This document shows positions 1,437-16,790 of a stretch of DNA of 20,191 nt, piece after piece. A program made the translations under genes and the position numbers. Origin of the DNA: a virus; IMG/VR virus record IMGVR_UViG_3300009176_000091, positions 1 to 20,191 of that record. The stretch is one strand, 5' to 3'. The first letter of the stretch is position 1. Every line of letters begins with the position of its first letter. The notes under the pieces are model-generated. The model was not told the origin of the DNA, ran no database searches, and saw only the letters and a program-made list of their open reading frames with translations.

Positions 1437-1811
1437 CTACTTCTGCTTGCCGTGTGGTGCAGACTTCTCAAAGGCCGTGAAGTCGCCGCGCGTGCTTGGG
1501 TGTTTTGGCTCTTCGACCTTCTTGGGTGCCTCGGCCTTTTTGGCGGCTGCGGCAGCTTCGTCCCTGGCCTTCTTGTCTGCCGCTGCCGCTGCCGCCGCGA
1601 CTTCAGCCTTCCTGGCCGCCTCGTCTGCCGCCAGCTTGGCTGGAGCCGGCCTCTTCGCGGCAACCCAGTTCTTGTAAGAGCCTTCGATGACCGACCAGAA
1701 GTCGGTGCTCTTCAGCCGCTCGATGGTCTCGGAGCCGCTGTCGTCGTTGTCGTTGACCCACGTGGCCCAGTCCTCGCCTTTTCCACGCGTTTCAAATGTT
1801 ACCGTCTTCAT
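1437..1811 (-). CDS. Hypothetical Ala/Lys-rich protein
   Basis: A 124-aa ORF whose start is set by a very good ribosome site (AAGGAG, 8 bases before the ATG) lying inside the 3' end of the DUF115-methyltransferase gene; the two genes overlap by 20 bases. The N-terminal 55 residues look globular (DWATWVNDNDDSG, DFWSVIEGSYKNWVAAKRP). Residues about 58-95 form a long Ala/Lys/Glu helix with a run of alanines, encoded by a GCC/GCA/GCG-rich stretch, and the C-terminus is Lys-rich. No family is recognised. The overlap suggests translation coupled to the upstream enzyme gene, so it might be a partner or just a neighbouring structural gene. Confidence 0.75.
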   Translation of the reverse strand: MKTVTFETRGKGEDWATWVNDNDDSGSETIERLKSTDFWSVIEGSYKNWVAAKRPAPAKLAADEAARKAEVAAAAAAADKKARDEAAAAAKKAEAPKKVEEPKHPSTRGDFTAFEKSAPHGKQK

Positions 1812-3189
1812 TGCTCTCTCCTTTCACTAGAAATTGCGAAACCCCTTCTGCCTCTCGCGACCACGTGACGGAGGCCCCAACCCATTCGAAGGCTTCCATC
1901 CACCACGCATGCGGCTTCACAGTCAGGTGCAGCGTGTGCCCTATCAGTTCACCGCAGTCGTCTTTTCGGGTGCTGATCTGGAAGAACACCGTCTCGGCGG
2001 CTTCCATGATGTTCGCCAGTACGTCGTTCACCTGCCCTTGGGCAATGTGCTCCATGACATCGGAGCAGAAGCCCCAGTGCGCCCTAGCAGGGATTGGACG
2101 GGCCAAGTCCCACTCCAGAAACGGCAGGCTCATCGCCTCCTCATCCCGGCAGTTGTCCGCGAAGTCGATGAGCAGCACCTCGTGTCCCGATTTGGACAAC
2201 TCAAGTCCTGCCCTCCCCGTCCCGCAGCCGAAGTCGATCACCAGCCCATCAGGCTTGGCGACCTCAAGGAACGTCGGGACCGCATGCTCTCCGGGCGACA
2301 CTTGCCGGTAGGTATCGAACTGCCAAAGCAGCCGGTATTTGTCCTGCTCTGTCAGGTCTTTCGGCTTCGTCAGGTACATCGCCGGCAACAGCCCATCGCC
2401 GTAGACGTGCAGCGTGCAGCCTTCCTGCTTCAGCGCCTGCGCGGTGATCTGGAACTTCTCGGCCTGCGCCTTCATGGCGACCGAGCTGTGGTAAGTCCGG
2501 CCTCCCCACTCCACGTCAACGCATGGAATGAAGCGGTTCATATCCTGCGGGTAGGCGTGCGACTGCCCGTCTCGGTGCGAGGAGTCGTAGCCAAAAATAT
2601 GAAACTCGCGGTAGCCCATCGTGTAGGCGAGCGCGAGGGCCGAATTGCCCACCGCAGCACCGCCGCCAATTAGGGCGTAGCCGCCGCGCTTTACCCGCTT
2701 CTCCGGGAACCAACGCTCGATGTTGCCGACCTCAAGGTGCCAGAGCGTTCCAAAGTCCCCACCGATGTATCGCAGGCACTCGGGGTTAACCTGAGAGGCA
2801 AATAGATATTCCTCTGCCCATGGATCAACCAAGCCCGCCGTCTCAGGCTTCGCGTCGGCAATGACCTGGTAGTCAACGCTGATGCGATGCTCGTGACACC
2901 ACTCGCTGGCGGCGTTCATCGCGAAGATATGGGCACCCTTCCGGTCCAGCGCCCGGATGTCATCGACGTGATCAGTGACTGACGGCCCGCCGCCCACCAT
3001 GACGGCGATGCGGTCGTGCGGCTCTTCCAGCTTGACCCACTTCAGATCGCGCTTTGAATTCTCCCGGACGTTCCGCTCTAGGTCTTCGTCCGACGTGTTG
3101 CAGATGACCAGAACCGGGATAAACAGCGGCTTCTCGGCCTGCGGGTTCTGATACGTCATCTGGACGATTTGACTGCGCGGTGCGGTCAT
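1792..3189 (-). CDS. DUF115 (MptE/Maf-like) - SAM-dependent methyltransferase fusion
   Basis: A 465-aa protein. The ATG at 3189 is chosen because AGGAG lies 7 bases before it; the same frame runs back to a GTG at 3240, but that would start inside a terminator stem. Residues about 60-275 match the DUF115 pattern: VMVGGGPSV (64-71), FAMNAAS (89-95), then GGGAAVGNSALALAYTMGY (175-193) and FHIFGYDSS (197-204). In other organisms this fold is found in MptE-type pterin pyrophosphokinases and in Maf-type flagellin glycosyltransferases. Residues about 313-455 form a class I methyltransferase: motif I VIDFGCGTGRAG (317-328), a strand ending LLIDFADN (339-346) and SDVMEHI (376-382). The gene sits directly after the capsid/decoration terminator. 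Substrate is unknown; modification of a virion protein or a host surface sugar are both possible. Confidence 0.85.
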   Translation of the reverse strand: MTAPRSQIVQMTYQNPQAEKPLFIPVLVICNTSDEDLERNVRENSKRDLKWVKLEEPHDRIAVMVGGGPSVTDHVDDIRALDRKGAHIFAMNAASEWCHEHRISVDYQVIADAKPETAGLVDPWAEEYLFASQVNPECLRYIGGDFGTLWHLEVGNIERWFPEKRVKRGGYALIGGGAAVGNSALALAYTMGYREFHIFGYDSSHRDGQSHAYPQDMNRFIPCVDVEWGGRTYHSSVAMKAQAEKFQITAQALKQEGCTLHVYGDGLLPAMYLTKPKDLTEQDKYRLLWQFDTYRQVSPGEHAVPTFLEVAKPDGLVIDFGCGTGRAGLELSKSGHEVLLIDFADNCRDEEAMSLPFLEWDLARPIPARAHWGFCSDVMEHIAQGQVNDVLANIMEAAETVFFQISTRKDDCGELIGHTLHLTVKPHAWWMEAFEWVGASVTWSREAEGVSQFLVKGESNEDGNI

Positions 3190-3201
3190 CAATGCTCCTA
3201 G

Positions 3202-3239
3202 AAAATGGGGGCGGGAACTTACTTGGGAGCCCGCCCCCA
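3202..3239 (-). terminator. Intrinsic terminator after the decoration gene
   Basis: On the minus strand a 10-bp perfect stem, TGGGGGCGGG paired with CCCGCCCCCA, encloses a 14-base loop and is followed at once by TTTT. It lies between the stop of the probable decoration protein (3259) and the ATG of the DUF115-methyltransferase gene (3189). Only about a dozen bases remain between the T-run and that ATG, so there is no room for a promoter; the downstream genes probably depend on read-through. The plus-strand reading lacks a T-run, so it is directional. Confidence 0.75.
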
Positions 3240-3243
3240 CCGC

Positions 3244-3261
3244 TAACCCCTTGCAGGGTTA
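3244..3261 (-). other. Small hairpin at the decoration-gene stop codon
   Basis: TAACCC and GGGTTA (minus strand) form a 6-bp stem with a 6-base loop; the first TAA is the stop codon of the decoration gene. It stands directly before the GC-rich terminator, giving two hairpins in tandem. It may protect the capsid mRNA end or help termination. This is inference from the sequence only. Confidence 0.4.
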
Positions 3262-3759
3262 CGTCACGCGCCCGCTGTGGTGCGGACGCGAGATGACCAG
3301 CGTCACCGTCGATACGTCGGACTTGGCCGAAGCCACCGCCGAAACGATAGCACCCGCCAGTTCCTTGCCGGTGCCGCTCGCCGACACCAAGCCCGTCGTC
3401 TTCACGCCAACCGCAGCTGCAGCCGCGAGCGACGTGCCCACAGCCTTGGCCGCAACGGCGCGACCGCTGATCTGATACCAGCCATACTGCGAGGCAACAT
3501 TCGCCGACATGGCGAACGCCACCGGACGCGGTAGAGCGGCACCGACCGCCGAGAGCGTCGTTACCCATGTGGTGCCCACGTCATAGGTGACGCAGGAGCC
3601 GACGATGGTGTTGGCGACCCCGATCAGATAGATGAACTCGCCCCACCCGTAGGTGGTGTCGAAAGCCCAGACTACCTGCCCGAGTTCGTGCTTCTTCGTC
3701 GTGGACGTCTCCGCAATCGCCTGTGCGCCGGCGAGAGCGCTTCTGACTTGATAAGCCAT
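3259..3759 (-). CDS. Probable capsid decoration / head fibre-type protein
   Basis: A 166-aa protein beginning MAYQVRSALAG. The frame is open further upstream (to 3819), but the ATG at 3759 has GGGAGGG just before it and sits 14 bases after the capsid gene stop, so I take that start. The sequence is rich in Ala, Val, Thr and Gly without charged clusters, typical of compact beta-rich virion surface proteins. A segment GRAVAAKAVGTSLAAAAAVG (about 119-138) followed by SASGTGKELAGAIVS resembles proteins that accompany major capsid proteins in podovirus-like phages. Position directly behind the capsid gene and before a terminator supports high expression and a head role. The specific function is inferred. 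Confidence 0.7.
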   Translation of the reverse strand: MAYQVRSALAGAQAIAETSTTKKHELGQVVWAFDTTYGWGEFIYLIGVANTIVGSCVTYDVGTTWVTTLSAVGAALPRPVAFAMSANVASQYGWYQISGRAVAAKAVGTSLAAAAAVGVKTTGLVSASGTGKELAGAIVSAVASAKSDVSTVTLVISRPHHSGRVT

Positions 3760-3773
3760 GTTCTTGCCCTCCC

Positions 3774-4742
3774 TTATGCGGCGTCGATCAGAACGCCTTG
3801 CAGCGCCCGATTCGAACACACCAACTGGTGCATGGAGATGATGGGAACGACCACGGCATCCTGGTTCAGCGACGATTTCTCGTCACCGACCGTCCATTGC
3901 GCGTCCTCGTGGAAGACAAGCTCCAGATAGTCGGTATTGAGAAAATACATCTTCTCCGCCGTAGTGGCGAAGTTGGTGTTGTCGTCGAAGATCACGTCCG
4001 CAGTGACGTACTTCAGTTCCGGGAAGCCGGCTCCAGCCGAGTCCCCTGACGCGCCGTTGGTGTAGCGCTGCAGGTCCTGCAGGCTTTCCCAATATGCCGA
4101 GTAGAAGTCATGGCTCGACACGATAAGATCGGGGCGATCACCGCCACGAACCTGCCTCAACCAAAGGATGTTCATATACCCCTTGATATTGGCCTTGCTC
4201 CACGCGTTGGATGACGGGATCTCGTAGAACTGGTTCATCCACTGCGTATAGGTGCCGCTGATGATGCCACCGACCGTGCCCGTTCCTGCGTTCTGGATGA
4301 TGAGGCCGAGGCCCCCCATCTGGTTCGTCAGGGCACCGGACGAGTATAAGTCGATGGACATATTGTTGGCGGCAGTGCGCTTGGCGTTATTGATGCGCGC
4401 CTTCACAAGATTGAAGATCTCCTGAGGGCCATTGTTCTTGCGCATTTCTTCGCCGGCTGCGGCGACATGGACAGCCGCATTAACCCAGTCATATTTCGCA
4501 GCGCTGATGACATCACCCGCACCGATGGCGAGGGTGTCGTACATCGAGTATCGCTGGTAGTTCGGGTTTTCGGCAATATCCAAGGGCCGGACGATTTCAT
4601 ATCCGCCTTGCAACGTGACCTTCTTCTGCTTTTTCAGACGACGGTAGAGAGCGTTATGCTCACTCACGTTGTCGGCAATCTCCGCTGGGTGATTGCGCAG
4701 CGTCGAGGTCACAATTTCAGTAAACGTGCTGTTTGCTGGCAT
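3774..4742 (-). CDS. Major capsid protein
   Basis: A 322-aa protein with GGAG 8 bases before its ATG. It starts MPANSTFTEIVTSTLRNHP, followed by NVSEHNALYRRLKKQKK, a basic segment and GGYEIVRPLDIAENPNYQRY (about 46-65). The central part contains NAKRTAANNMSIDLYSSG and a PDLIVSSHDFYSAYWESLQ block near residue 205, and the C-terminal part has MYFLNTDYLELVFHED. Such features are typical of HK97-fold coat proteins in phages with P22-like portal and gp4-like adaptor. It would form the icosahedral shell around the scaffold. Position right after the scaffold gene (gap about 25 bases) supports the call. Length is usual for the group. Confidence 0.9.
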   Translation of the reverse strand: MPANSTFTEIVTSTLRNHPAEIADNVSEHNALYRRLKKQKKVTLQGGYEIVRPLDIAENPNYQRYSMYDTLAIGAGDVISAAKYDWVNAAVHVAAAGEEMRKNNGPQEIFNLVKARINNAKRTAANNMSIDLYSSGALTNQMGGLGLIIQNAGTGTVGGIISGTYTQWMNQFYEIPSSNAWSKANIKGYMNILWLRQVRGGDRPDLIVSSHDFYSAYWESLQDLQRYTNGASGDSAGAGFPELKYVTADVIFDDNTNFATTAEKMYFLNTDYLELVFHEDAQWTVGDEKSSLNQDAVVVPIISMHQLVCSNRALQGVLIDAA

Positions 4743-4768
4743 TGTGGTCTCCGAAGAGGGTTAAGGGC

Positions 4769-5848
4769 CTAGGCCCTGCGTGGAATCCGCTTCTCGACTT
4801 CGTTGCGAAGGGTGTCTTCCCACGTCCCCTTGACGGGGGACGCAACGACACTTCCGCGCTGGTTAAGCGCTTGGTGCCGCTTGGCTTCCTTGACCTGCTT
4901 TTCCTGCTCGGCCTTGGCCTGCTCCTCATCCTTCTTGCGCTGGTCCGCTAGGATGCGCTCACGGATGGTCGGGTCTCCCCATCGAGCATCATCGTATGCC
5001 TGCTTCAGCACCTGCTCGGGCGAAAGGTCTGGGTTGACCTCTCGAATGGCAGCCGCATTGCCGGCAATACGTGTTTCCAGGGTCTTGAAGTCGGGAGCAT
5101 CCTTCTTGAAGTTGTCGATAGCGGTGAGAACCGCCTGCTCCTGCATCAGCCGGCGCAATTCACCCCGCACCTGCTCAGGCTCCAACTGAGGAGCCCTTTG
5201 CTGTTGCGGCGGCAATTGCGGCTGACCAGCGGCAAGCGCTTGCAGATTAACCCTATACCTCTGCGCAAGCTCGGCGATGACACCAGCCGGGTTCCTGTCC
5301 AGGGATTGTGACACCCGGATCACCTCGTCGAGAGCTGACTCCGGAGTGCGTCCAATCTGGCGCAGATAGTCGGCATGCTGTTCGGCGACCGCTCGTAGCG
5401 GCTCGTGGGACTTAACCTGCTCGCCCATCCGAGAAATCTGACGAAATGTGTCCTTGTCCCGTTCGGCGACATAAGCGCGAACGTCGGGTGGCAAGGCGGC
5501 AAACTTCGCCTTCATCTCGGCCGACCAAGACTGCGGCGCATCGATGGCCGGCTTTTCCTTAGCCGGTTCGCTGCTCGCCGTCTCGGGCTGGTCGGGTGTC
5601 TGTGGTGCCTCCGGCGCTGCCTCTTCTACAGGGCGCGCCGTTGGGATGTGTGGTGCGAATTTCCCGTTTTCGCGGGGCGGGTTGTGTTTCGCATGGATTT
5701 TGAACGCGGTAGCCCGCAGGTCTTCATCGAAGGACGGCTTGGGAGCGTCGGCGGCGGGGGCGGCAGGCGGGGGCGCTGATGTATTAGGCGCAAGCGCAGG
5801 CGTGCTCTCGGCGGCGGCTGGTGCCGCACCGCTGTCCAATTCCGACAT
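4769..5848 (-). CDS. Capsid scaffolding protein
   Basis: A 359-aa protein with GGGAG 8 bases before the ATG. The first 110 residues are a disordered Pro/Ala-rich region with acidic patches. From about residue 110 to the end it is highly helical and charged: SWSAEMKAKFAALPPDVRAY, EPLRAVAEQHADYLRQIG and a long Lys/Glu/Gln helix near 300-330. The C-terminus is basic (EVEKRIPRRA), as often seen in scaffolds, whose C-terminal end contacts the coat protein. It lies immediately before the major capsid gene, the standard place for a scaffold. It would guide procapsid assembly and then leave or be degraded. There is no protease motif that I can see, so I do not call a fused maturation protease. Confidence 0.85.
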   Translation of the reverse strand: MSELDSGAAPAAAESTPALAPNTSAPPPAAPAADAPKPSFDEDLRATAFKIHAKHNPPRENGKFAPHIPTARPVEEAAPEAPQTPDQPETASSEPAKEKPAIDAPQSWSAEMKAKFAALPPDVRAYVAERDKDTFRQISRMGEQVKSHEPLRAVAEQHADYLRQIGRTPESALDEVIRVSQSLDRNPAGVIAELAQRYRVNLQALAAGQPQLPPQQQRAPQLEPEQVRGELRRLMQEQAVLTAIDNFKKDAPDFKTLETRIAGNAAAIREVNPDLSPEQVLKQAYDDARWGDPTIRERILADQRKKDEEQAKAEQEKQVKEAKRHQALNQRGSVVASPVKGTWEDTLRNEVEKRIPRRA

Positions 5849-6485: not shown

Positions 6486-7214
6486 CTACATCTGCTGCTT
6501 CTGGGCCTTCGCCTTCGCGTCCATCATCTCCAAGCCCATCTCGTGCTTGCTCTCCATCTCCTGAGTGGAAAGCTCCGTCTGCCGCTCCTGCATCTGCATG
6601 TCGGCCGACGCCTGCTCCTGCTTGATGGCCGCCGTCATCTGCATGTCCTGCTGCTTTAGTTGCAGTTCCTGAGCCTTGAGTTGTAGCTCGGCCTGTTTCA
6701 GCGAAAAGGCCAGCTTCATCTCCTCCAGCTTCATGGCGTGCTCTTGCTGCTTCGCCTGCATATCCATCTGGGTCTGCTGCTGCTTGGCCTGGATATCGGC
6801 AGCCTTGCCCTGCATGTCCATTTGAGCCTTGGCCTGCTCGGTCTTGGCCTTCATCTCCTCCGGGCTGGGCTTTGGCGGCTGCTTGGCCTTCTTCTCAGCC
6901 TCCTCTTGCGCCTGATCGAGCGCATCCTCGGCCTGCTTACCCAGCTTGTAGTTGCGGGCAAACGCCGTGTAGACCTTGATGAGCAGGTCAGGCGGGATGA
7001 TGCCGGTCTGTAGCGCTTCCGTGGCACCCTGCAGAAACATCCCGGTTCCCTGCATGAACTGGTTCATCTGCTCTTGGCTACGCACCAAGTCTGCCCGGAT
7101 GGTGGAATCGCTCTCAATGTCGACGCGGTACTGACGGAGCAGATCATTGCGCAGGAGGCCGAGCACCTCCTCCCACGTCGGCAGCGTGAGAATCTCCTCG
7201 GGAGTGAGCGCCAT
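6486..7214 (-). CDS. Portal protein C-terminal domain encoded as a separate gene, with Gln/Met-rich coiled coil
   Basis: A 242-aa protein starting at the ATG at 7214, which shares one base with the stop of the spike gene (TGATG); the frame is open upstream to 7250 but that part is spike coding sequence. Residues about 5-60 (LTLPTWEEVLGLLRNDLLRQ, then YRVDIESDSTIRADLVRSQE, NQFMQGTGMF) match the segment that in intact P22-like portals follows the KGxQ..WGSLR region, where a WxxVxxLLRxDxxRxYRIDIETDST pattern occurs. Residues about 75-105 (PDLLIKVYTAFARNYKLGK) also fit. The remainder (about 100-242) is a Gln/Met/Lys/Ala coiled coil of the kind seen in portal barrels. Together with the 514-aa upstream gene it totals 756 aa, close to a full portal. 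The assignment rests on motif memory and should be tested structurally. Confidence 0.75.
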   Translation of the reverse strand: MALTPEEILTLPTWEEVLGLLRNDLLRQYRVDIESDSTIRADLVRSQEQMNQFMQGTGMFLQGATEALQTGIIPPDLLIKVYTAFARNYKLGKQAEDALDQAQEEAEKKAKQPPKPSPEEMKAKTEQAKAQMDMQGKAADIQAKQQQTQMDMQAKQQEHAMKLEEMKLAFSLKQAELQLKAQELQLKQQDMQMTAAIKQEQASADMQMQERQTELSTQEMESKHEMGLEMMDAKAKAQKQQM

Positions 7215-9346
7215 CAGGCGTTGTCCTGCTTCCCGCCTATCGGCACCCATACATCGGTCACGATCTTCGTCAGCATGATCGTGTCGAGCGGAACGGTAAG
7301 CACGAAGTCGGCACCACAGAAGATATTGCCGGTGCCGTTCTTCACGGTGACATCGTTGCCGCCATCCGCCGATGAGAATACAATGACTTGGCCTCGGTTG
7401 CCGCCGGTTATGGTGTTCAGGTCAACTGCTCCGCCACCAGTAGCGAGAGCGAAGCATATCGGATAGCCAACCGGTATGTTGTCGGGAAGAGTGACCGCGT
7501 TTGCAGATATCGTCAGCGTCTTGGTCAGCGGCACCCAATCGTTGCCTACCTCCAGGGGATTCGCTCCGAACCCGTCAGAAATGCCGGTAATTGTCATGTC
7601 GGAAATGTTGTCCCGAACGATGATGCGATCACCCCACAGTGGCACGCCCGTCGAGCCAAACCGGATGGCGCGCAGCGAGATGTCCAGAAACTTGTTGCTT
7701 TCAAAGATCAAGTCGCCGCTCGCGCCACCGCTGGAGCCGAGGATGTCAAAGCCGTAGGTTCCATTCTGGAAGACGCATTCCTTAAAGTTCCAATTTCCCA
7801 TATCGGTCTTGGGGAGATAGTTATCCCGGATAATAGGATTGGCAGGGTCAGTGCCGGTAAATTCGGTGTTGCGCACCCGCCAGTTCGGGTAGCTCTTCCC
7901 GTTCAGTTCACAAACCAGTGGAGCGGTGAACTTGGAGTCGGAGAGCTTGAACTCGTCCCATGCTACAACGGCATGGATGCCGCTTACGGAGCAGTCGAAG
8001 TTGCAGTTATTGATGCGGAGGAAGCCGCTCGATGGCAGCTCCGAATAGGTAGCCGCGTCGATGTTGCCGACGCCGATGGTCAGGCCGCCCTCGCAACTGA
8101 TGTCGCAGTTCGACATGGTTAGGTCTTTGCCGCGGTGCTGAACGCCCGTGCCGCACATGATGACGTTGTGGCCGACGACGTTCATTCCCTGATATTTGTG
8201 CCCGGCCGGCCCGGTGATGCAGGAGTAGCTGTTGCCGCCAACGATGTGGATGTCGCAGCACGGAATTTGTTGCGAAACATCGTCGTCGAACATATGAATT
8301 GGTGAAGCATCCGGATCAACAAGGCGACGGCAGAACCGTGCCGTGCAGCCAGTCACGTTGACACCTAACACACCACACACCGCCCACCCAGTGAACCATT
8401 GGGAAATATGTGACGGATCGTAGTTCGACGGGTCATCCAGCTTGCGGCCGATGATGTTCGTATTGACCATGCTATGATCAATGCCAAGATTGGACAATAC
8501 TGCAAAACGCGGAAAGTTCTCGAAGAAGCAGTCAACCATCGTCGCGCGATCTACAAAATCTAAGTCAATTGCGCGAACGCCTGTGGGATTTGTGGTGTCA
8601 TGCAGCGCGCCGCCGCCCGCTCCTATTGCCCGCATGCCCTTGATGGTAATGTCATGGATTGTTTTTACTTTGCGCACATAAGACGTGTAGGTTTCGGCAA
8701 GGTAGGTGTATTTGAGCGGGAGTGCTGGTGTTATCGCGTCATCGAAAATAAACCCAACGTAATTGAGTTCACCATTATTACTTGAATCGAAGCCGCCGAC
8801 GCCTGCCACTCCATTCCAATAATCTCCAGTGCTGGTGATGGCGATGATGTCGCCCTCGTTCAAGACGGACGGGTCGGCGACGGTGAAAGCAGAGTTGTTT
8901 ACATCCGTTACATCAGCGCTGCCCGCAGCAACGTTCGTCGTGATGGTCGTGCGCTCGCCAAAACAGTTGGCGTATGGATTTACCAGCAACGTGTCATATT
9001 CGGGGGGAGCAAAGTGCAAGACCGCCCACGCATCGGCGTCAGCGCCGGCGTCGGACTCGGAGAGGTCCAGTATGCCCCGCCCCTGCCCGTCGATGGTCAC
9101 GTTGGAAGCCGTAAAAATCTGCTCGTCGTTGAGCTTATATCGCCCGGTCATATTGATCAGCACGCCGCGCCCTTCGGCGTCGTCTTCGGAGAGCCCGTTG
9201 ACATAGGCAGCAAGAGCGGCGAATGCCGTATCCGAGGACGCCACGCCAGACGGGTCGGCCCCAAACTGCTCGGGCGTAATTGTCCGCGTAGACTCGGCGG
9301 GCGGGAAAAAGCCCTCAAGCCGGTCGGGGAAGGTAAAGACCTTCAT
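7214..9346 (-). CDS. Right-handed beta-helix tailspike-like protein (third spike)
   Basis: A 710-aa protein starting MKVFTFPDRLEGFF at an ATG that overlaps the previous stop (ATGA). Residues 27-95 have the pectate-lyase/tailspike opening: QFGADPSGVASSDTAFAALA, GVLINMTGRYKL, VTIDGQGRGILDL. The body (about 110-590) consists of repeated short strands with N/D/G/C turns, such as DLTMSNCDISCEGGL and LRINNCNFDCSV, typical of parallel beta-helix coils. The last 100 residues form a beta-rich capping domain (NTITGGNRGQVIVFSSADGG, VTVKNGTGNIF) common at fibre ends. It shares its N-terminal plan, including a TSTGDYWNGVAG-like loop, with the first spike. A role in recognising or degrading a host surface polysaccharide is likely; catalytic residues cannot be named. 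Confidence 0.85.
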   Translation of the reverse strand: MKVFTFPDRLEGFFPPAESTRTITPEQFGADPSGVASSDTAFAALAAYVNGLSEDDAEGRGVLINMTGRYKLNDEQIFTASNVTIDGQGRGILDLSESDAGADADAWAVLHFAPPEYDTLLVNPYANCFGERTTITTNVAAGSADVTDVNNSAFTVADPSVLNEGDIIAITSTGDYWNGVAGVGGFDSSNNGELNYVGFIFDDAITPALPLKYTYLAETYTSYVRKVKTIHDITIKGMRAIGAGGGALHDTTNPTGVRAIDLDFVDRATMVDCFFENFPRFAVLSNLGIDHSMVNTNIIGRKLDDPSNYDPSHISQWFTGWAVCGVLGVNVTGCTARFCRRLVDPDASPIHMFDDDVSQQIPCCDIHIVGGNSYSCITGPAGHKYQGMNVVGHNVIMCGTGVQHRGKDLTMSNCDISCEGGLTIGVGNIDAATYSELPSSGFLRINNCNFDCSVSGIHAVVAWDEFKLSDSKFTAPLVCELNGKSYPNWRVRNTEFTGTDPANPIIRDNYLPKTDMGNWNFKECVFQNGTYGFDILGSSGGASGDLIFESNKFLDISLRAIRFGSTGVPLWGDRIIVRDNISDMTITGISDGFGANPLEVGNDWVPLTKTLTISANAVTLPDNIPVGYPICFALATGGGAVDLNTITGGNRGQVIVFSSADGGNDVTVKNGTGNIFCGADFVLTVPLDTIMLTKIVTDVWVPIGGKQDNA

Positions 9347-9648
9347 TTGCGATAGACCGTCAGAGTTATGGGAGTCTTGGCCGGTTCGGCGTCAAGCCGC
9401 AGGTAAACCCGGTCGGCCGTCGTCAGTTCTGTGAACTGGACTACCCTTTCGTCCTGCGAAATTTCGGGCGCTCCGAACAAGTCGTAGTTGGTGGCCCCCG
9501 CAGTTGGCAGGCTCGTGCCGAGGATAACGCGGATTGCGTTGTCCCTGAACCCGCGAAGTTGCAAGCGAAAGGCACAGTTCGCATTACCGCCCGAAACATC
9601 CTGATAGGCCGCCGTGGTGAGCGTGAAAGAGACTGTCGAAACCGCCAT
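9343..9648 (-). CDS. Small beta-rich structural protein
   Basis: A 101-aa ORF, MAVSTVSFTLTTAAYQDVSG at the start, with alternating strand-forming residues throughout (FRLQLRGFRDNAIRVILG, DRVYLRLDAEPAKTPITLTV). It is close to the size and style of phage virion proteins with a single beta-sandwich. Its TGA overlaps the ATG of the spike (ATGA), so the two are probably translated together. No family recognised; a role as a spike adaptor or attachment base is a guess from linkage. Confidence 0.7.
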   Translation of the reverse strand: MAVSTVSFTLTTAAYQDVSGGNANCAFRLQLRGFRDNAIRVILGTSLPTAGATNYDLFGAPEISQDERVVQFTELTTADRVYLRLDAEPAKTPITLTVYRK

Positions 9649-9657
9649 ATCAGATGC

Positions 9658-9951
9658 TCACTTTGGATAGGGTTCGTCGGGCTTGCCGGGAACGGAGCAG
9701 TAGCCGCAGCGCCGCGCAGCGGTCTCTTCAGGCGGCTCCGTCCATATCCACTGCCCATCCTCTCGCCTGACCAGGTAAGAAAGCGGCACGTCCTGCGGGC
9801 GGTCTTTTGTTGACCCACCCTGCAAGACGATGGGCTCACGCTCAGGGCCAAATACCCACATCATGCAAACCGAAGCCCGACACGCCGCCTTGTCGGTGTT
9901 GCGCGTCCAAACACACCACTTGCCTCGCGCCTCACCTTCTGTGCGCCACAT
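9658..9951 (-). CDS. Hypothetical cysteine-containing protein after the portal N-terminal gene
   Basis: A 97-aa ORF whose ATG shares one base with the portal-N stop codon (TGATG). It contains CRASVCMMWVFG near residues 24-35, a VRREDGQWIWTEPPEET segment and a RRCGYC pair near 80-85 before a Pro-rich end. Two pairs of cysteines suggest possible metal binding, but spacing alone is not proof. No family recognised. It lies in the 2.7-kb insertion between the two portal pieces. Confidence 0.65.
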   Translation of the reverse strand: MWRTEGEARGKWCVWTRNTDKAACRASVCMMWVFGPEREPIVLQGGSTKDRPQDVPLSYLVRREDGQWIWTEPPEETAARRCGYCSVPGKPDEPYPK

Positions 9952-11495
9952 CAGTATGCCCCTTGCTGGGCTATGGGAGGCCGCTGAGCGCCGTTGAGCT
10001 CACCAGGCTGCTGAGGGGCCTGCGGACGCTGTGGCGCTTGCTGGACCTGCTGAGCGGCCGCAGCCTGCTTTTTAGCGAAATCCTGCTCCCACTGCGCCGG
10101 CAACTCGATACCGCTCATCAGCTTGATGGTCTCGTCACCAAACTTGTTGGCGATGATCTCCGCCTTCAGCCGGAACAGGTCGCGCGCATATTTTGCAATT
10201 GCCTTCTGGCGGTTCTGAATGCGCAGGCTGCCCCACTGCGTCTTGATTTCTTGCGCGCCCTTGGTCTCCCTCGGGTCCGTCTGTCCCCGCATGATGTCGG
10301 CGGTGCCACACACCTCGTAGATTTTCTGCTTGGTAATCTCGCTTTGCAGCGTCACCTTTTCAAGAGCAGCGGACACTTGATCCAGCGGCATTACCCAAAT
10401 GGCTTTGTCGAGCCCACCGCCCAGCGAGTAGATAGCCTCGATGTCCTGCACCGGCGGGAAATCACCATCGCCTGCGACCGCTAGATTCTCGAAGTCCTTG
10501 ATGCGACTGTCCCGCAGCCCCCGGTATTTCAGGCAGGCCGTCAGCCCCATGATGCGCTGCGTCTCTAGATCCAGCTGTTCAGCCAATCTGCGATACAGGC
10601 GATAGAGTGGCACAGGAACCAGCGTATCAGTCGTTCTGATCACGTAGAGCGGCGGCGGAACCGGAAAGAAGCCTTCAAGGCCCAGGGGGTCTGGCTCACG
10701 CGAAATTGGCGCATCCTTGTAGGATGGAGCTATGTAGATGACCTCCTCCGTCGCCTTGTCCCAGATTTCCCAAACCCGAGCCCGCATGAAGATGTCGGGT
10801 GCCGGCTTGTCCGCTTCCCGTGTCTTGTCGTCCGCCACTTCCACGTCGAGTTGAATCTTCTCGGCAATCTCGGACTCGCAGATGTCGCGGAGCTCATCGC
10901 GAGTGTAAAAATGCTCGAACGCTATCCACGGGACGTAGGCCCACTGCCTTTCTGGACCATGCCGGAAATTCGCCCAGCCAACATGCTCGCAAATGGCCAA
11001 TTCCCAAGCCTTTTTGCCCTGCAAGCGTCCCTTGCCAGGAACAGACTTATAATGAACCCTTGTAACGCCGCGTCCGGTTAGCTCGTTGTCCTTGAGTGCC
11101 GCTTCCATGACAGCGTCGAAGTCGTAGGCGTCCGTCAGGTAGGACAGGCACCGCTCAATGCATTGCGAGCCATATTTCGCCACCGGGTCCTTATCGTTGA
11201 ACCGCCTCCGCACGTCTGGAATAGGCGTCGAGTTGTAAAGCGCCGGAACCGTCGTCTCGACGTTCGCAAACAGAATATTGAAGTAGTCCGACCCGACAAG
11301 CTGCGTCGTGGTGCTCGCCGACGCCTCCTCCTGGCGATAGCGCTTGACGACGAGTTCCGCCTCCGTCCTCCAGGACTTCTCCTCTTCATCCGCCGCATCG
11401 AGCGCGCTGAGCCACATGCGGACGAGCCCAGCGTTGTCCTGCGCTGCCTCTTCCCTGGTTTCGAAGACTTCGGTGGAGTCGACGGGATCAGCCAT
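9951..11495 (-). CDS. Portal protein, N-terminal and core part (split portal)
   Basis: A 514-aa protein whose ATG shares one base with the stop of the second spike (TGATG). Diagnostic regions of P22-like portals: NILFANVETTVPALYNSTP (73-91) with VRRRF; DNELTGRGVTRVHYK (136-150); a DPLGLEGFFPVPPPLY segment; RLYRRLAEQLDLETQRI; and GTADIMRGQTDPRETKGAQE with TQWGSLRIQNRQ (397-430), followed by ARDLFRLKAEIIANKFG. The portal forms the dodecameric DNA channel at one capsid vertex and docks the terminase. The chain then ends in a 48-residue Gln/Pro/Ala-rich tail where intact portals continue into the WxxVLxLLRxD...DIExDST domain. That domain is found instead in the gene at 6486-7214. Confidence 0.9.
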   Translation of the reverse strand: MADPVDSTEVFETREEAAQDNAGLVRMWLSALDAADEEEKSWRTEAELVVKRYRQEEASASTTTQLVGSDYFNILFANVETTVPALYNSTPIPDVRRRFNDKDPVAKYGSQCIERCLSYLTDAYDFDAVMEAALKDNELTGRGVTRVHYKSVPGKGRLQGKKAWELAICEHVGWANFRHGPERQWAYVPWIAFEHFYTRDELRDICESEIAEKIQLDVEVADDKTREADKPAPDIFMRARVWEIWDKATEEVIYIAPSYKDAPISREPDPLGLEGFFPVPPPLYVIRTTDTLVPVPLYRLYRRLAEQLDLETQRIMGLTACLKYRGLRDSRIKDFENLAVAGDGDFPPVQDIEAIYSLGGGLDKAIWVMPLDQVSAALEKVTLQSEITKQKIYEVCGTADIMRGQTDPRETKGAQEIKTQWGSLRIQNRQKAIAKYARDLFRLKAEIIANKFGDETIKLMSGIELPAQWEQDFAKKQAAAAQQVQQAPQRPQAPQQPGELNGAQRPPIAQQGAY

Positions 11496-13255
11496 CAGGC
11501 CGTGCCCACCTTCAGATACCGCCCAGACACGCGCAGTAGCGAAGTATTGGTGAAATCGGCATCCGTGAGCCGCGCCGGATTACCCACCCCAGCCGCCATC
11601 TTGTAGACCTCGATGGTCGTCGTGTTCGACATCACCAGGGCGGAGAGCATCGTATCGCCAACGCCCGCCGTCATGAGCGAGGCGTGAATGGTGCAGGGAA
11701 AGTTCAACCCGACCATCGACGCAACGGGCAGGCCACTGATCAGGAAGTTCCCCGTCGAGCTGCCCTTGTTAGTGAACGCAGCCGCCATGAAGAATTCGAC
11801 TATGTGTTCGTCGACCATGACGCGTCCGCTGACATTGACAGTCGCACCCACCAGCGCGCCGCCGAACGAGACAGTGAACACGTTGTTAGAGACGGGCAGA
11901 CCGCCAATGCGCTCGACGACTCCGACTTCCGCGCCTCCATAGTCATTCCCGCTATAGCCCAACTCCATATCGTTCTTACTGTAGACGTTGGTGCCGGTCG
12001 ACGATCTGAGAATAGCAACGGTAGCGTTGCCGACTAGGCACTTGTTCAGCGCGATAAAACACCCGTTCGGGACGAACGTACCTCCATCGGTAACGCTGAT
12101 GCAGGAAGTTGTAGCAACGGCCCAGACCAAATCCGGATCAATATCCGAAATCTCGTTGCTAGTGACGACGATGTTCTCCGTGGCGCGCCCGGCCGTTGAG
12201 CTGCCAGTTACGATGATGCCGGCTAGCCCCGATCCCCTAATCCTGTTGCCGGTGGCGAGATTGTTCTGCGCCCCATGAATGAACTTCAGCCCATAGATGT
12301 AGTTATTGACCAGCCGGTTGCCGCTGATGATGGAATCGGAGCCGAAGCAGTCGATCCCTTCGCCGGTGTCCTCGATGTAGTTGCCGCGCAGGGAGAGGTC
12401 TGTAGCCCCATAGTGCGCGACGTTGATGCCGTCGCTTTGCTCCTGTAGCCACGGCGCGGAAGCACTACGAGACAGGCGGAAATCGAGACCCACGCGCACA
12501 CTGATGATGCGATTGTCATGTAGCTTGATGCTTTGGCAGCGGACGCTGTTGATCGGATCGCCGTCAATATGGATGGCGGTGATGTTCGGTGCCGGCGTGG
12601 CGGCGTATGCCGTCGAGTTCTCTAGGCAGTCATGGATGTAGTTGTTGGAGACAGAGCCGCCGACGAAACTTTGCAGATTGATCTGATCTCCCAGCGGAAA
12701 ACCAGACAACTCATTGCCGTCAATATCGCAGTCTTCACAATTGTGCGCCGCAATGCCGACGATCATCCGCCCATCATCCACCTCGCTTCGGAGATGGATG
12801 TTGCTGATCGCCGCCTTGCTGATGGGGAGGTAGCTACCCGAGCGCTGGCCAGTCAGCATCAGGCCGACGGCATTCGAGCCGTAACGCTGGCCTACCCCGT
12901 AACCAGTCGTGTTTGTCGCATTGACACTGCTAAACGCGCTCGCCGGCATGTAGAGAGTGCCACGACTAGACCCCTGCCCTTCAATGCATGTTTCGTCTAC
13001 CGTGATTTCGGCGCGCTGAGAAAGCCGGAAGAACGACCCCGGCCGCATCAGCCAGCCCTTGCCGCTTACGGCAACAATCTCCTGTAAAACCCGCGTGTTG
13101 AGGGCATCATGAGTATCGTCGTCTTCGTCCGTCACCTCGCGCATCGGAGCCCAGCTATCACCTAAATAGCGGCGCACAATGTGCTTCTGCGGCCCGATGA
13201 CAGACACACTTTCGGGGTCCGAGACGGCCGTCTCGGTTGAATAACCGATAGCCAT
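11495..13255 (-). CDS. Right-handed beta-helix tailspike-like protein (second spike)
   Basis: A 586-aa protein starting MAIGYSTETAVSDPES. The first 60 residues differ from the other two spikes and contain an acidic REVTDEDDDTHDALN stretch, perhaps a distinct virion-attachment part. From about residue 75 to 420 the sequence shows beta-helix coils: ITVDETCIEGQG, NNYIHDCLENS, LSLRGNYIEDTGEGIDCFG, DSIISGNRLVNN, NLATGNRIRGSGLAGIIVTG. The final 150 residues are a beta-rich trimerisation or binding-type domain without helix repeats. It precedes portal-N with overlapping stop/start codons. Likely a receptor-binding protein or polysaccharide depolymerase; no active site can be assigned by eye. Confidence 0.82.
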   Translation of the reverse strand: MAIGYSTETAVSDPESVSVIGPQKHIVRRYLGDSWAPMREVTDEDDDTHDALNTRVLQEIVAVSGKGWLMRPGSFFRLSQRAEITVDETCIEGQGSSRGTLYMPASAFSSVNATNTTGYGVGQRYGSNAVGLMLTGQRSGSYLPISKAAISNIHLRSEVDDGRMIVGIAAHNCEDCDIDGNELSGFPLGDQINLQSFVGGSVSNNYIHDCLENSTAYAATPAPNITAIHIDGDPINSVRCQSIKLHDNRIISVRVGLDFRLSRSASAPWLQEQSDGINVAHYGATDLSLRGNYIEDTGEGIDCFGSDSIISGNRLVNNYIYGLKFIHGAQNNLATGNRIRGSGLAGIIVTGSSTAGRATENIVVTSNEISDIDPDLVWAVATTSCISVTDGGTFVPNGCFIALNKCLVGNATVAILRSSTGTNVYSKNDMELGYSGNDYGGAEVGVVERIGGLPVSNNVFTVSFGGALVGATVNVSGRVMVDEHIVEFFMAAAFTNKGSSTGNFLISGLPVASMVGLNFPCTIHASLMTAGVGDTMLSALVMSNTTTIEVYKMAAGVGNPARLTDADFTNTSLLRVSGRYLKVGTA

Positions 13256-14468: not shown

Positions 14469-16727
14469 TCAGGCCGCGATGACCCCGCGCGCCTTAATTG
14501 TCGGATTGGCGTAGTTGATTGTCTGCGCCGTCGCAGTGCTGCTCGCCGTGTCAGTCGTCGTGAACGTCATCTTATCTGGCGTGACCGCTGTCACGCGCGT
14601 CTTCAACGTAGCCGCAGCCGGCCCAGCAGTAGGAATGCTTATATAATTCCCCGGCATAAACCCAGCACTGGCTGTCGTGGTAAGAATGTTAGTTCCGCTC
14701 GTCATCGATCCAGTCCGGACCGTGCTCCCCATCGTGCCGGCAGCTGTAACTACATACCCCTCAACGCCTGCAGCCGTAGGCGTCACCTTATCGAACTTAT
14801 CCCCAACACGAACCGTCCTGCCATGCTGATGCCCATTGTCCTCAGTGCCATCAAAAACACCAGCAGTCGGCCAATACTCATAAACAGGCTCACCAAGACA
14901 CCTATTACCCCCAATAGCCGGAAACGCCTTGAACATGTATCCAAACGTGAAGCTTACCGCGCTAGCTAACGGCTTGGAAAACAAGTTATCCTGAACTCGA
15001 ATGTTGTCACCATAAAAGCCGCGCGCCCCGCTGTCATTCCCCAGCCTCAAATCAAAGTTGTCTATATTAAGAAACGTGTTCCCAGAAATATCAATGTTAT
15101 CAGCAGGCGTCTCGACCCCAGGTAAATCAAAATCTCCACACCCCTCGATCAACACACCTGTGGCAAAATTGTCAAATGTATTACCAATAATCCTAATAGC
15201 CCCACGCTCCAACGTTTTCCCATTAAAATTGTCATCCTCAATACCATAAACACCATCATCCAGCGCTGGCCGGTTAGGACTGTGAAAGTAATTTCCAGAA
15301 ATATTCATCGACCTTATGCGATTAGAAATAGTCCTAATGCCATTCTCACTCATATTAGTAGCGACATTCCCCGTAACGCTTACCACATCACTGTCACCCG
15401 TCAGTGTTAAAAACCTACCGTCACAATGGTCCACAACATTATTTGCGATTAGGACATTACCATTTGCCACAAGCCCGTTGTCGTCATACCCTTGATCGCT
15501 TGGTCCCCCGACTGAGGCAAAGGCACCCCCACAATAGGTCGCGCGATTGCCGACGATAGCAACATTCCTGCCGCGAAAATCAAACGCCCCACCCCGGCCA
15601 GAGATTATCGTATTGCCGGCAAACAGCGCGTCTGCCGCCTGATGGCAGATGAACGGATTGGCGCAGGAGTGGGCGAGATTCCCAACCACGTTCAGGGCGC
15701 GGGTGACGACCGCCAGACCGTCCCCGCCGCCGCCGCCGTCCATGAAATGCCGATGCCGGTAGCCGATGTTTCGGGTGAAATCCTGCCCCTGCACACTGAC
15801 ATTGTTTATGAAATAGAACCACGGGCTAAGCGTCGCCCCCTGGTTCGACGCCGTGGTCAGATCTAGTCCCTGGCTGACGTTTCCGCTCACCTCAGAGTAT
15901 AAGACATGATTCAACATAAGCGCGAAGCTGGAGAAATTATTCCACCGGCAGTCGTTGATCTTGAGGCCACGAACGTAAAAGCATCCCAGTCCCCGCGCCG
16001 TGCTAGGAATGGAGCTTCCTAACCACGAGCTTCCCTGCGCCGGCCCCTCAAAGCCCAGGCCCTTGACATTAATCTTTTCGAGAAAATTCATCTTCGTAAG
16101 GGTCTGCGTGTTGGGCGACACAGACCCAAACGCCGCCCGCGTGTAGCTATCCAGAATCCCGCTCTCGAACGTGATCACATTGCCCGAGATGAACGAAATC
16201 TGGAGGAACTCTCCCTTCGTCGTCAGCCCATACCCAGACGCCCCCGAGATGCCGTTGAAATACTCTGTGGACGTGAACTTGCAGAAATCACCCACCGCAA
16301 AGTCGGCAGCGCTCGCAACCGTTATCTGCGTGTCCCCAATTGCCACGTCGTGCGTACATGTCGTCGTCGTAGCGCTGATCGACCCGCCAAAATGCAAGCC
16401 ATGCGCCCCCGTATCCAACCCTGTGCAGTCCAAAACGGACGAACCGTTTCCGTCTATCGTGATGTTTCCACGCCCGATGACGACCCCTGTGCCGGTAAGC
16501 TTATATCTCCCGTAGGGAAACAGCAGCGTCCCGCCCGTCAGCGCCACGTCGGCGATTGCTGCCTCGATTGCAGCGTTTGCACTCACTACACCAGTCGGAT
16601 CAACATTATAAATCGGGTCCATAATGTTGACCGGTGCCGTGGTTCCATAGGGGCCGGCCGTTGGTGCAAAGCCGATGGCTGGCGCAATGAGCGGCGGCTG
16701 TATCTCCCATCCGGTTACGGCTGCCAT
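14469..16727 (-). CDS. Right-handed beta-helix tailspike-like protein (first spike)
   Basis: A 752-aa protein from the ATG at 16727 (MAAVTGWEIQPPL). The frame is open to a TTG at 16778 but that start lacks a ribosome site; no strong site is visible for the ATG either. Residues 37-100 show the pectin-lyase-fold opening: NVDPTGVVSANAAIEAAIAD, GGTLLFPYGRYKL, ITIDGNGSSVLD. Residues about 145-170 (FTSTEYFNGISGASGYG) match the corresponding loop of the third spike. The body has beta-helix coils such as VAIVGNRATYCGGAF and MNISGNYFHS, then a switch near EYWPTAGVFDGTEDNGHQHG to a C-terminal beta domain. The coding stretch 14880-15480 is clearly poorer in G+C and uses AGG, ATA, AAT and ACT codons unlike its neighbours, suggesting acquisition by recombination. 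Confidence 0.85.
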   Translation of the reverse strand: MAAVTGWEIQPPLIAPAIGFAPTAGPYGTTAPVNIMDPIYNVDPTGVVSANAAIEAAIADVALTGGTLLFPYGRYKLTGTGVVIGRGNITIDGNGSSVLDCTGLDTGAHGLHFGGSISATTTTCTHDVAIGDTQITVASAADFAVGDFCKFTSTEYFNGISGASGYGLTTKGEFLQISFISGNVITFESGILDSYTRAAFGSVSPNTQTLTKMNFLEKINVKGLGFEGPAQGSSWLGSSIPSTARGLGCFYVRGLKINDCRWNNFSSFALMLNHVLYSEVSGNVSQGLDLTTASNQGATLSPWFYFINNVSVQGQDFTRNIGYRHRHFMDGGGGGDGLAVVTRALNVVGNLAHSCANPFICHQAADALFAGNTIISGRGGAFDFRGRNVAIVGNRATYCGGAFASVGGPSDQGYDDNGLVANGNVLIANNVVDHCDGRFLTLTGDSDVVSVTGNVATNMSENGIRTISNRIRSMNISGNYFHSPNRPALDDGVYGIEDDNFNGKTLERGAIRIIGNTFDNFATGVLIEGCGDFDLPGVETPADNIDISGNTFLNIDNFDLRLGNDSGARGFYGDNIRVQDNLFSKPLASAVSFTFGYMFKAFPAIGGNRCLGEPVYEYWPTAGVFDGTEDNGHQHGRTVRVGDKFDKVTPTAAGVEGYVVTAAGTMGSTVRTGSMTSGTNILTTTASAGFMPGNYISIPTAGPAAATLKTRVTAVTPDKMTFTTTDTASSTATAQTINYANPTIKARGVIAA

Positions 16728-16790
16728 GGAGATGCATATCCGAGGCCAACAATGGACATCGAGACACCTAGTTTTCAATCAGTGATTGGT

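Follow-up and report, generated by a model that had tools for sequence, protein, structure and literature searches.

A phage portal protein encoded by two separate genes, and the recurrence of the same break among related phages

Organization of the portal locus

The sequence analyzed here (the window) is a virus record of 20,191 bases that is itself a fragment, and its head genes are all on the minus strand. The portal, the ring protein that DNA passes through on its way into and out of the head, is a central machine in tailed phages and in herpesviruses. To our knowledge, all known portals are single chains. The portal position between the large terminase and the scaffold/major capsid genes is recognizable in the window, where it is occupied by two portal genes separated by other genes. 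Downstream of the large terminase gene, spike-like and glycine-rich genes precede portal chain 1, P0003, and P0004. Next come a spike-like gene of 710 aa, portal chain 2, some small genes, the scaffold-like gene, and the major head protein gene. The features are:

18420-17032, minus strand: large terminase (TerL)
11495-9951, minus strand: portal chain 1 (P0001, the N chain), 514 aa, with N-terminal arm, clip, stem, and wing
9951-9658, minus strand: P0003, 97 aa, with a TGATG start on the chain 1 stop
9648-9343, minus strand: P0004, a small protein of 101 aa
9346-7214, minus strand: putative tailspike-like gene, 710 aa, found in the window only among the related loci
7214-6486, minus strand: portal chain 2 (P0002, the C chain), 242 aa, with the last wing strand, crown helices, and barrel
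5848-4769, minus strand: scaffold-like gene
4742-3774, minus strand: major head protein

An earlier note on this DNA, made without database searches, had proposed that the portal is divided between two genes. Profile searches agree: in the 715-position portal profile phrog_12082, P0001 aligns to positions 9-513 (E 3.8e-128) and P0002 to 517-703 (E 2.9e-29), such that the two chains cover adjacent, non-overlapping parts of one profile. Both the N-terminal/core part and the crown/barrel part of the window portal are therefore matched by PHROG 12082. The single open reading frame that is usual in this family (perhaps not a defining trait) is replaced by two genes 2.7 kb apart. The note had also expected no full-length portal elsewhere, and within this fragment the family profile matches only two pieces, at positions 3-486 and 479-716. 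Full-length homologs in PHROG 12082 include the portals of Myxococcus phages Mx8/Mx9, Ruegeria phage 45A6, and Rhizobium phage RHph_I3_18, all of which are intact single genes, unlike that of the window.

The coordinates also bear out the junctions reported earlier. The stop of chain 1 and the ATG of P0003 share one base (TGATG), P0003 and P0004 are separated by a 9-base gap, P0004 and the spike-like gene overlap by ATGA, and the spike-like gene and chain 2 are again joined by TGATG. The longest open reading frame for chain 2 would begin at 7250 (254 aa), but its start was set at 7214 because the homologous starts in two relatives, L013 and L093 (MTLEEILASPT..), agree. Chain 1 ends in a Gln/Pro-rich tail (..QGAY), and the last wing strand in chain 2 has the sequence YRVDIESDST.

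For the three genes between the portal halves, few relatives were found. P0003 has no Pfam or PHROG match and only chance-level matches among the related loci. P0004 has homologs in L013 (51% identity) and L093 (38%), also located between the two portal genes. No member of this family was found elsewhere in the viral contigs, and it was seen only between portal halves. The L013 copy has a weak match to phrog_28626, a family of unknown function (E 1.7e-4). The 710-aa gene has no match in Pfam, PHROGs, the phage collection, or the related loci; the label tailspike-like comes from the first reading of the sequence and from its repeat-like character, and should be taken as putative. There are three long spike-like genes around the window portal (11495-13255, 14469-16778, and 7214-9346, minus strand), and right-handed beta-helix profiles match two of them, the one inside the portal matching nothing. 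L093 also carries an 830-aa gene and a 496-aa gene between its terminase and chain 1 genes. Downstream of the head genes, the window encodes a 482-aa protein (1792-3240, minus strand) with a C-terminal half that reads like a methyltransferase.

Distribution of split portals among related phages

Relatives were sought in a phage collection, viral contigs, and one genome per bacterial and archaeal species, in part with a four-row portal alignment as the search input. Chain 2 by itself retrieved no viral contig, as its coiled-coil part offers no peptide pattern suited to such a search. A locus was called split or intact by profile, according to whether the wing side and the crown side lie in one open frame. 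The final scan gave 371 intact loci, 30 split loci (with duplicates), 21 loci that run off a contig end, and two that need follow-up. With duplicates removed, 19 distinct phages or prophages have a split portal among approximately 390 related portal loci. This set includes L178, a contig that ends 99 bases past chain 1; in its relative L420 (66% identical), chain 2 is located 3.1 kb downstream. Chain 2 is present in every split phage with enough sequence. In the split-phage records and two whole host genomes, the portal profile detected the two pieces only and no intact copy.

The genes between the two halves form a series. No insert is present in the Bradyrhizobium phage ppBjS10J-1 (GTGA overlap), in L039 (ATGA overlap), in L233 (chain 2 starts 14 bases past the chain 1 stop), in prophages carried by Acetobacter okinawensis, A. 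lovaniensis DSM 4491, and Asaia astilbis, or in six IMG/VR relatives of these prophages. One inserted gene is found in the closest relatives of the window, L013 (54–55% identity) and L093, which have the same break as the window with the P0004 homolog alone between the halves; window chain 2 is 58–60% identical to the C chain of L013. L155 has an unrelated 58-aa gene with ATGA at either end, and in L161 and L225 the halves lie about 350 bp apart, with a 68-aa frame in between. The window has three inserted genes, including the spike-like one. In the L420 phage, the 3.1 kb between the halves holds one 933-aa frame (L441, minus strand, 3012-5813 of the reverse complement), which has no Pfam or PHROG match and might encode an internal virion protein.

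Among the annotated phage matches, only ppBjS10J-1 (L004, OP596615.1) has a split portal. Both of its chains were deposited as hypothetical proteins, and the deposited start of chain 2 (9536-10246) is at 9725, about 190 bases too late. A prophage search among 299 genomes related to A. lovaniensis returned the query genome alone, so the prophage is patchy in its distribution. Two loci have irregular portal genes. L357 (3521-4739), a prophage relative of the Acetobacter/Asaia group, has a portal that looks decayed or internally deleted. L155 has a second wing-side portal piece (1261-1752) directly upstream of its complete wing-side frame (1918-3534), with long identical stretches, as if the gene had been partly duplicated.

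Predicted structure and position of the break

The intact relative L015, which is 49% identical to window chain 1, was modeled with 71 sequences (mean pLDDT 84.4). The best PDB matches of the model are podovirus portals (Pan3, Pa223, VP1, SU10, N4, T7, and PaP3), and the match to Pan3 (9vyf; E 1.5e-14) identifies a portal fold for L015, as distinct from the two window chains jointly. In this model, the linker that holds the break corresponds to a loop (481-486) between confident helices. Past it are helices 487-514, a strand at 515-519 in a block with pLDDT 92, crown-like helices 524-594, and a helix at 599-708. The suggestion in the earlier note that chain 2 is the portal barrel was thus correct but incomplete, as chain 2 would also include the last wing strand and the crown.

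When modeled alone, window chain 2 gave a pLDDT of 87.7 and a pTM of 0.39, with the barrel predicted as a 121-residue helix. The RVDIE strand is gone in this model and lies in blocks with pLDDT 56–64 (one prediction with a shallower alignment); its loss fits a strand that would need chain 1 as its partner. A fold search with the lone model gave no significant match (best E 2.0), as expected for a long helix, and sequence-profile searches of the PDB gave weak coiled-coil matches only, to the PaP3 and Pa223 barrels.

The window portal has no significant sequence match to P22 itself. In overall plan, P22 gp1 (together with those of Sf6, PaP3, and Pa223) has the same clip, stem, and wing, flexible link, crown, and helical barrel, with similar lengths, but it is one 725-aa chain, whereas the wing and crown of the window portal are on separate chains. 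In the P22 portal, the hammer loop spans residues 456-505, the crown 525-600, and the barrel 600-725, and the crown is flexibly connected to the wing (PMC5290284). Because the order and positions of these elements closely agree between the L015 model and P22, the break most likely coincides with the P22 hammer loop or adjoins it, a placement by order and position rather than by superposition. A covalent wing-crown link may therefore be dispensable.

A recurrent break site and purifying selection on both halves

The linker, taken as the stretch from the wing-side to the crown-side profile, was measured in 311 intact portals. Its median length is 44 residues, and Pro plus Gln make up 39% of it, compared with 13.5% over the whole portal. 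Every break with both halves measured falls in this Pro/Gln-rich linker, with 37–73 residues left on chain 1 and 10–45 on chain 2. The break is therefore at one fixed site, a point that the earlier note had named as a check. If breaks were uniform over approximately 740 residues, the probability that eight would fall within an 80-residue linker by chance is about 2e-8. This clustering probably reflects selection against breaks within folded domains.

In a wing-side tree with 293 tips, the 19 split tips fall into eight groups with intact sisters, and parsimony gives eight changes with an intact root. The window clade, the Acetobacter/Asaia clade, the L178/L420 clade, and the placement of L155 within an intact clade all have support of 1.0, and L233 has 0.998. 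The nodes that join ppBjS10J-1 with its neighbors (0.18) and place L039 (0.74) are weak. Eight origins should thus be regarded as an estimate. The arrangement is not one of a kind: the split is seen in about eight lineages, among them prophages from cultured bacteria. A literature search, short on subscription journals, found no report of a split or two-gene portal, in line with the earlier note.

Strong purifying selection acts on each half (dN/dS about 0.01–0.12). For the L013–L093 pair, chain 1 has a dN/dS of 0.086/0.747 and chain 2 one of 0.097/0.86. The P0004 insert (0.397/1.08) evolves faster than the portal chains. For pairs of acetic-acid-bacteria prophages, dN/dS is 0.035–0.066 for chain 1 and 0.008–0.091 for chain 2.

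A Shine-Dalgarno (SD)-like motif was seen ahead of chain 2 in L039 and L233 and at all eight Acetobacter/Asaia-type starts tested; in L013 and L093, one lies ahead of the inserted gene. An internal ribosome-binding site in intact linkers was considered as a feature predisposing to splits and was rejected: only 30 of 318 intact portals have an SD-preceded in-frame ATG in the linker, and such ATGs are not enriched there (4% of in-frame linker ATGs vs. 9% in the background set). In the window clade, chain 1 has a conserved GAY end, for which a functional role was also rejected, since the DNA encoding it (GGAGCATAY) coincides in part with the SD of the gene that follows.

A probable two-chain portal and alternative explanations

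Taken together, it is quite probable that the window portal is a two-chain protein, the halves of which assemble non-covalently. A break in the flexible Pro/Gln-rich linker that joins wing to crown probably divided one ancestral P22-type podovirus portal gene, leaving the clip, stem, and wing in chain 1 and the last wing strand, crown, and helical barrel in chain 2. Both chains would be translated from one operon, either through coupled stop/start overlaps (TGATG, ATGA) or from their own SD sites, and would most likely meet during procapsid assembly. We infer that chain 2 docks onto chain 1 by its strand: RVDIE would join the wing sheet of chain 1 and the crown would pack on the ring, so that a normal ring would form with no covalent connection. 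Since the same cut arose about eight times, the two halves probably work unjoined. The split junction may also be a safe place for other genes, where neither half is harmed. The window clade would have gained P0004 first, and the window later also P0003 and the tailspike-like gene. The wider reading combines these points: about eight splits at the hammer-loop position, halves held together non-covalently with no need for a covalent link for the packaging signal, and a break that serves as a repeated landing site for genes such as tailspikes. We consider this slightly more likely than not.

The chief rival is that chain 1 alone forms a T7/phi29-like portal, with chain 2 an independent internal protein outside the ring, for example an ejection-protein partner or a scaffold-like protein. 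Short portals without a barrel do exist (T7, 536 aa; phi29, 309 aa; PMC13386823), the P22 core 1-602 makes the same ring without the barrel (PMC5290284), and P22 gp1 can do without its last 50 residues (PMC4992974). However, chain 2 has a wing strand and a crown, which is more than the P22 barrel, and its crown-side motif RxDIExDST is preserved as in fused portals. This rival is weakened by the equal selection on and retention of chain 2, which evolves as slowly as chain 1 and is never missing in split phages with enough sequence, even when it lies 3 kb away. We regard it as unlikely.

Joining of the pieces by intron splicing, intein splicing, or programmed frameshifting is very improbable. 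The pieces are co-directional and in order, and adjacent cases overlap by 4 bases, which would fit such joining. A precedent for an interrupted essential protein is the DNA polymerase gamma of cyanophage Mic1, which is encoded by ORF85 and ORF86 with a 298 bp intron (PMC7156551). The two systems are alike in having an essential protein in two genes with sequence between them, but an intron is described for Mic1, whereas the window has whole genes, including the tailspike-like one, and no intron was found. A search of the window with Rfam gave no intron at E 0.1, and a Pfam search of its proteins gave no intein domain, nor any other domain that would point to joining, consistent with the dismissal of protein splicing in the earlier note. 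Moreover, each inserted gene is complete, with a start and a stop of its own, chain 2 has its own SD in many cases, and frameshifting cannot span inserts of 0.17 to 3.1 kb. Finally, although the window is one metagenomic contig, which can be chimeric, and the L357 prophage does look decayed, we agree with the earlier note that decay or a sequencing/assembly artifact is hardly credible, given the purifying selection on either half, the neat stop/start overlaps in many lineages, about eight independent breaks at one linker, and the recurrence of the arrangement in further metagenomes as well as in the genomes of cultured strains.

For a two-chain portal, the natural, repeated, and stable cut would mark the crown plus barrel as a separable module and indicate the exact site at which a break is tolerated. 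Split portals make it testable whether a covalent connection is required for wing-crown coupling, through which the P22 portal has been proposed to sense the packed DNA, and the prophages of culturable Acetobacter and Asaia provide a convenient system. They also give annotators a reason to look for the other part of portals that appear to be missing or short.
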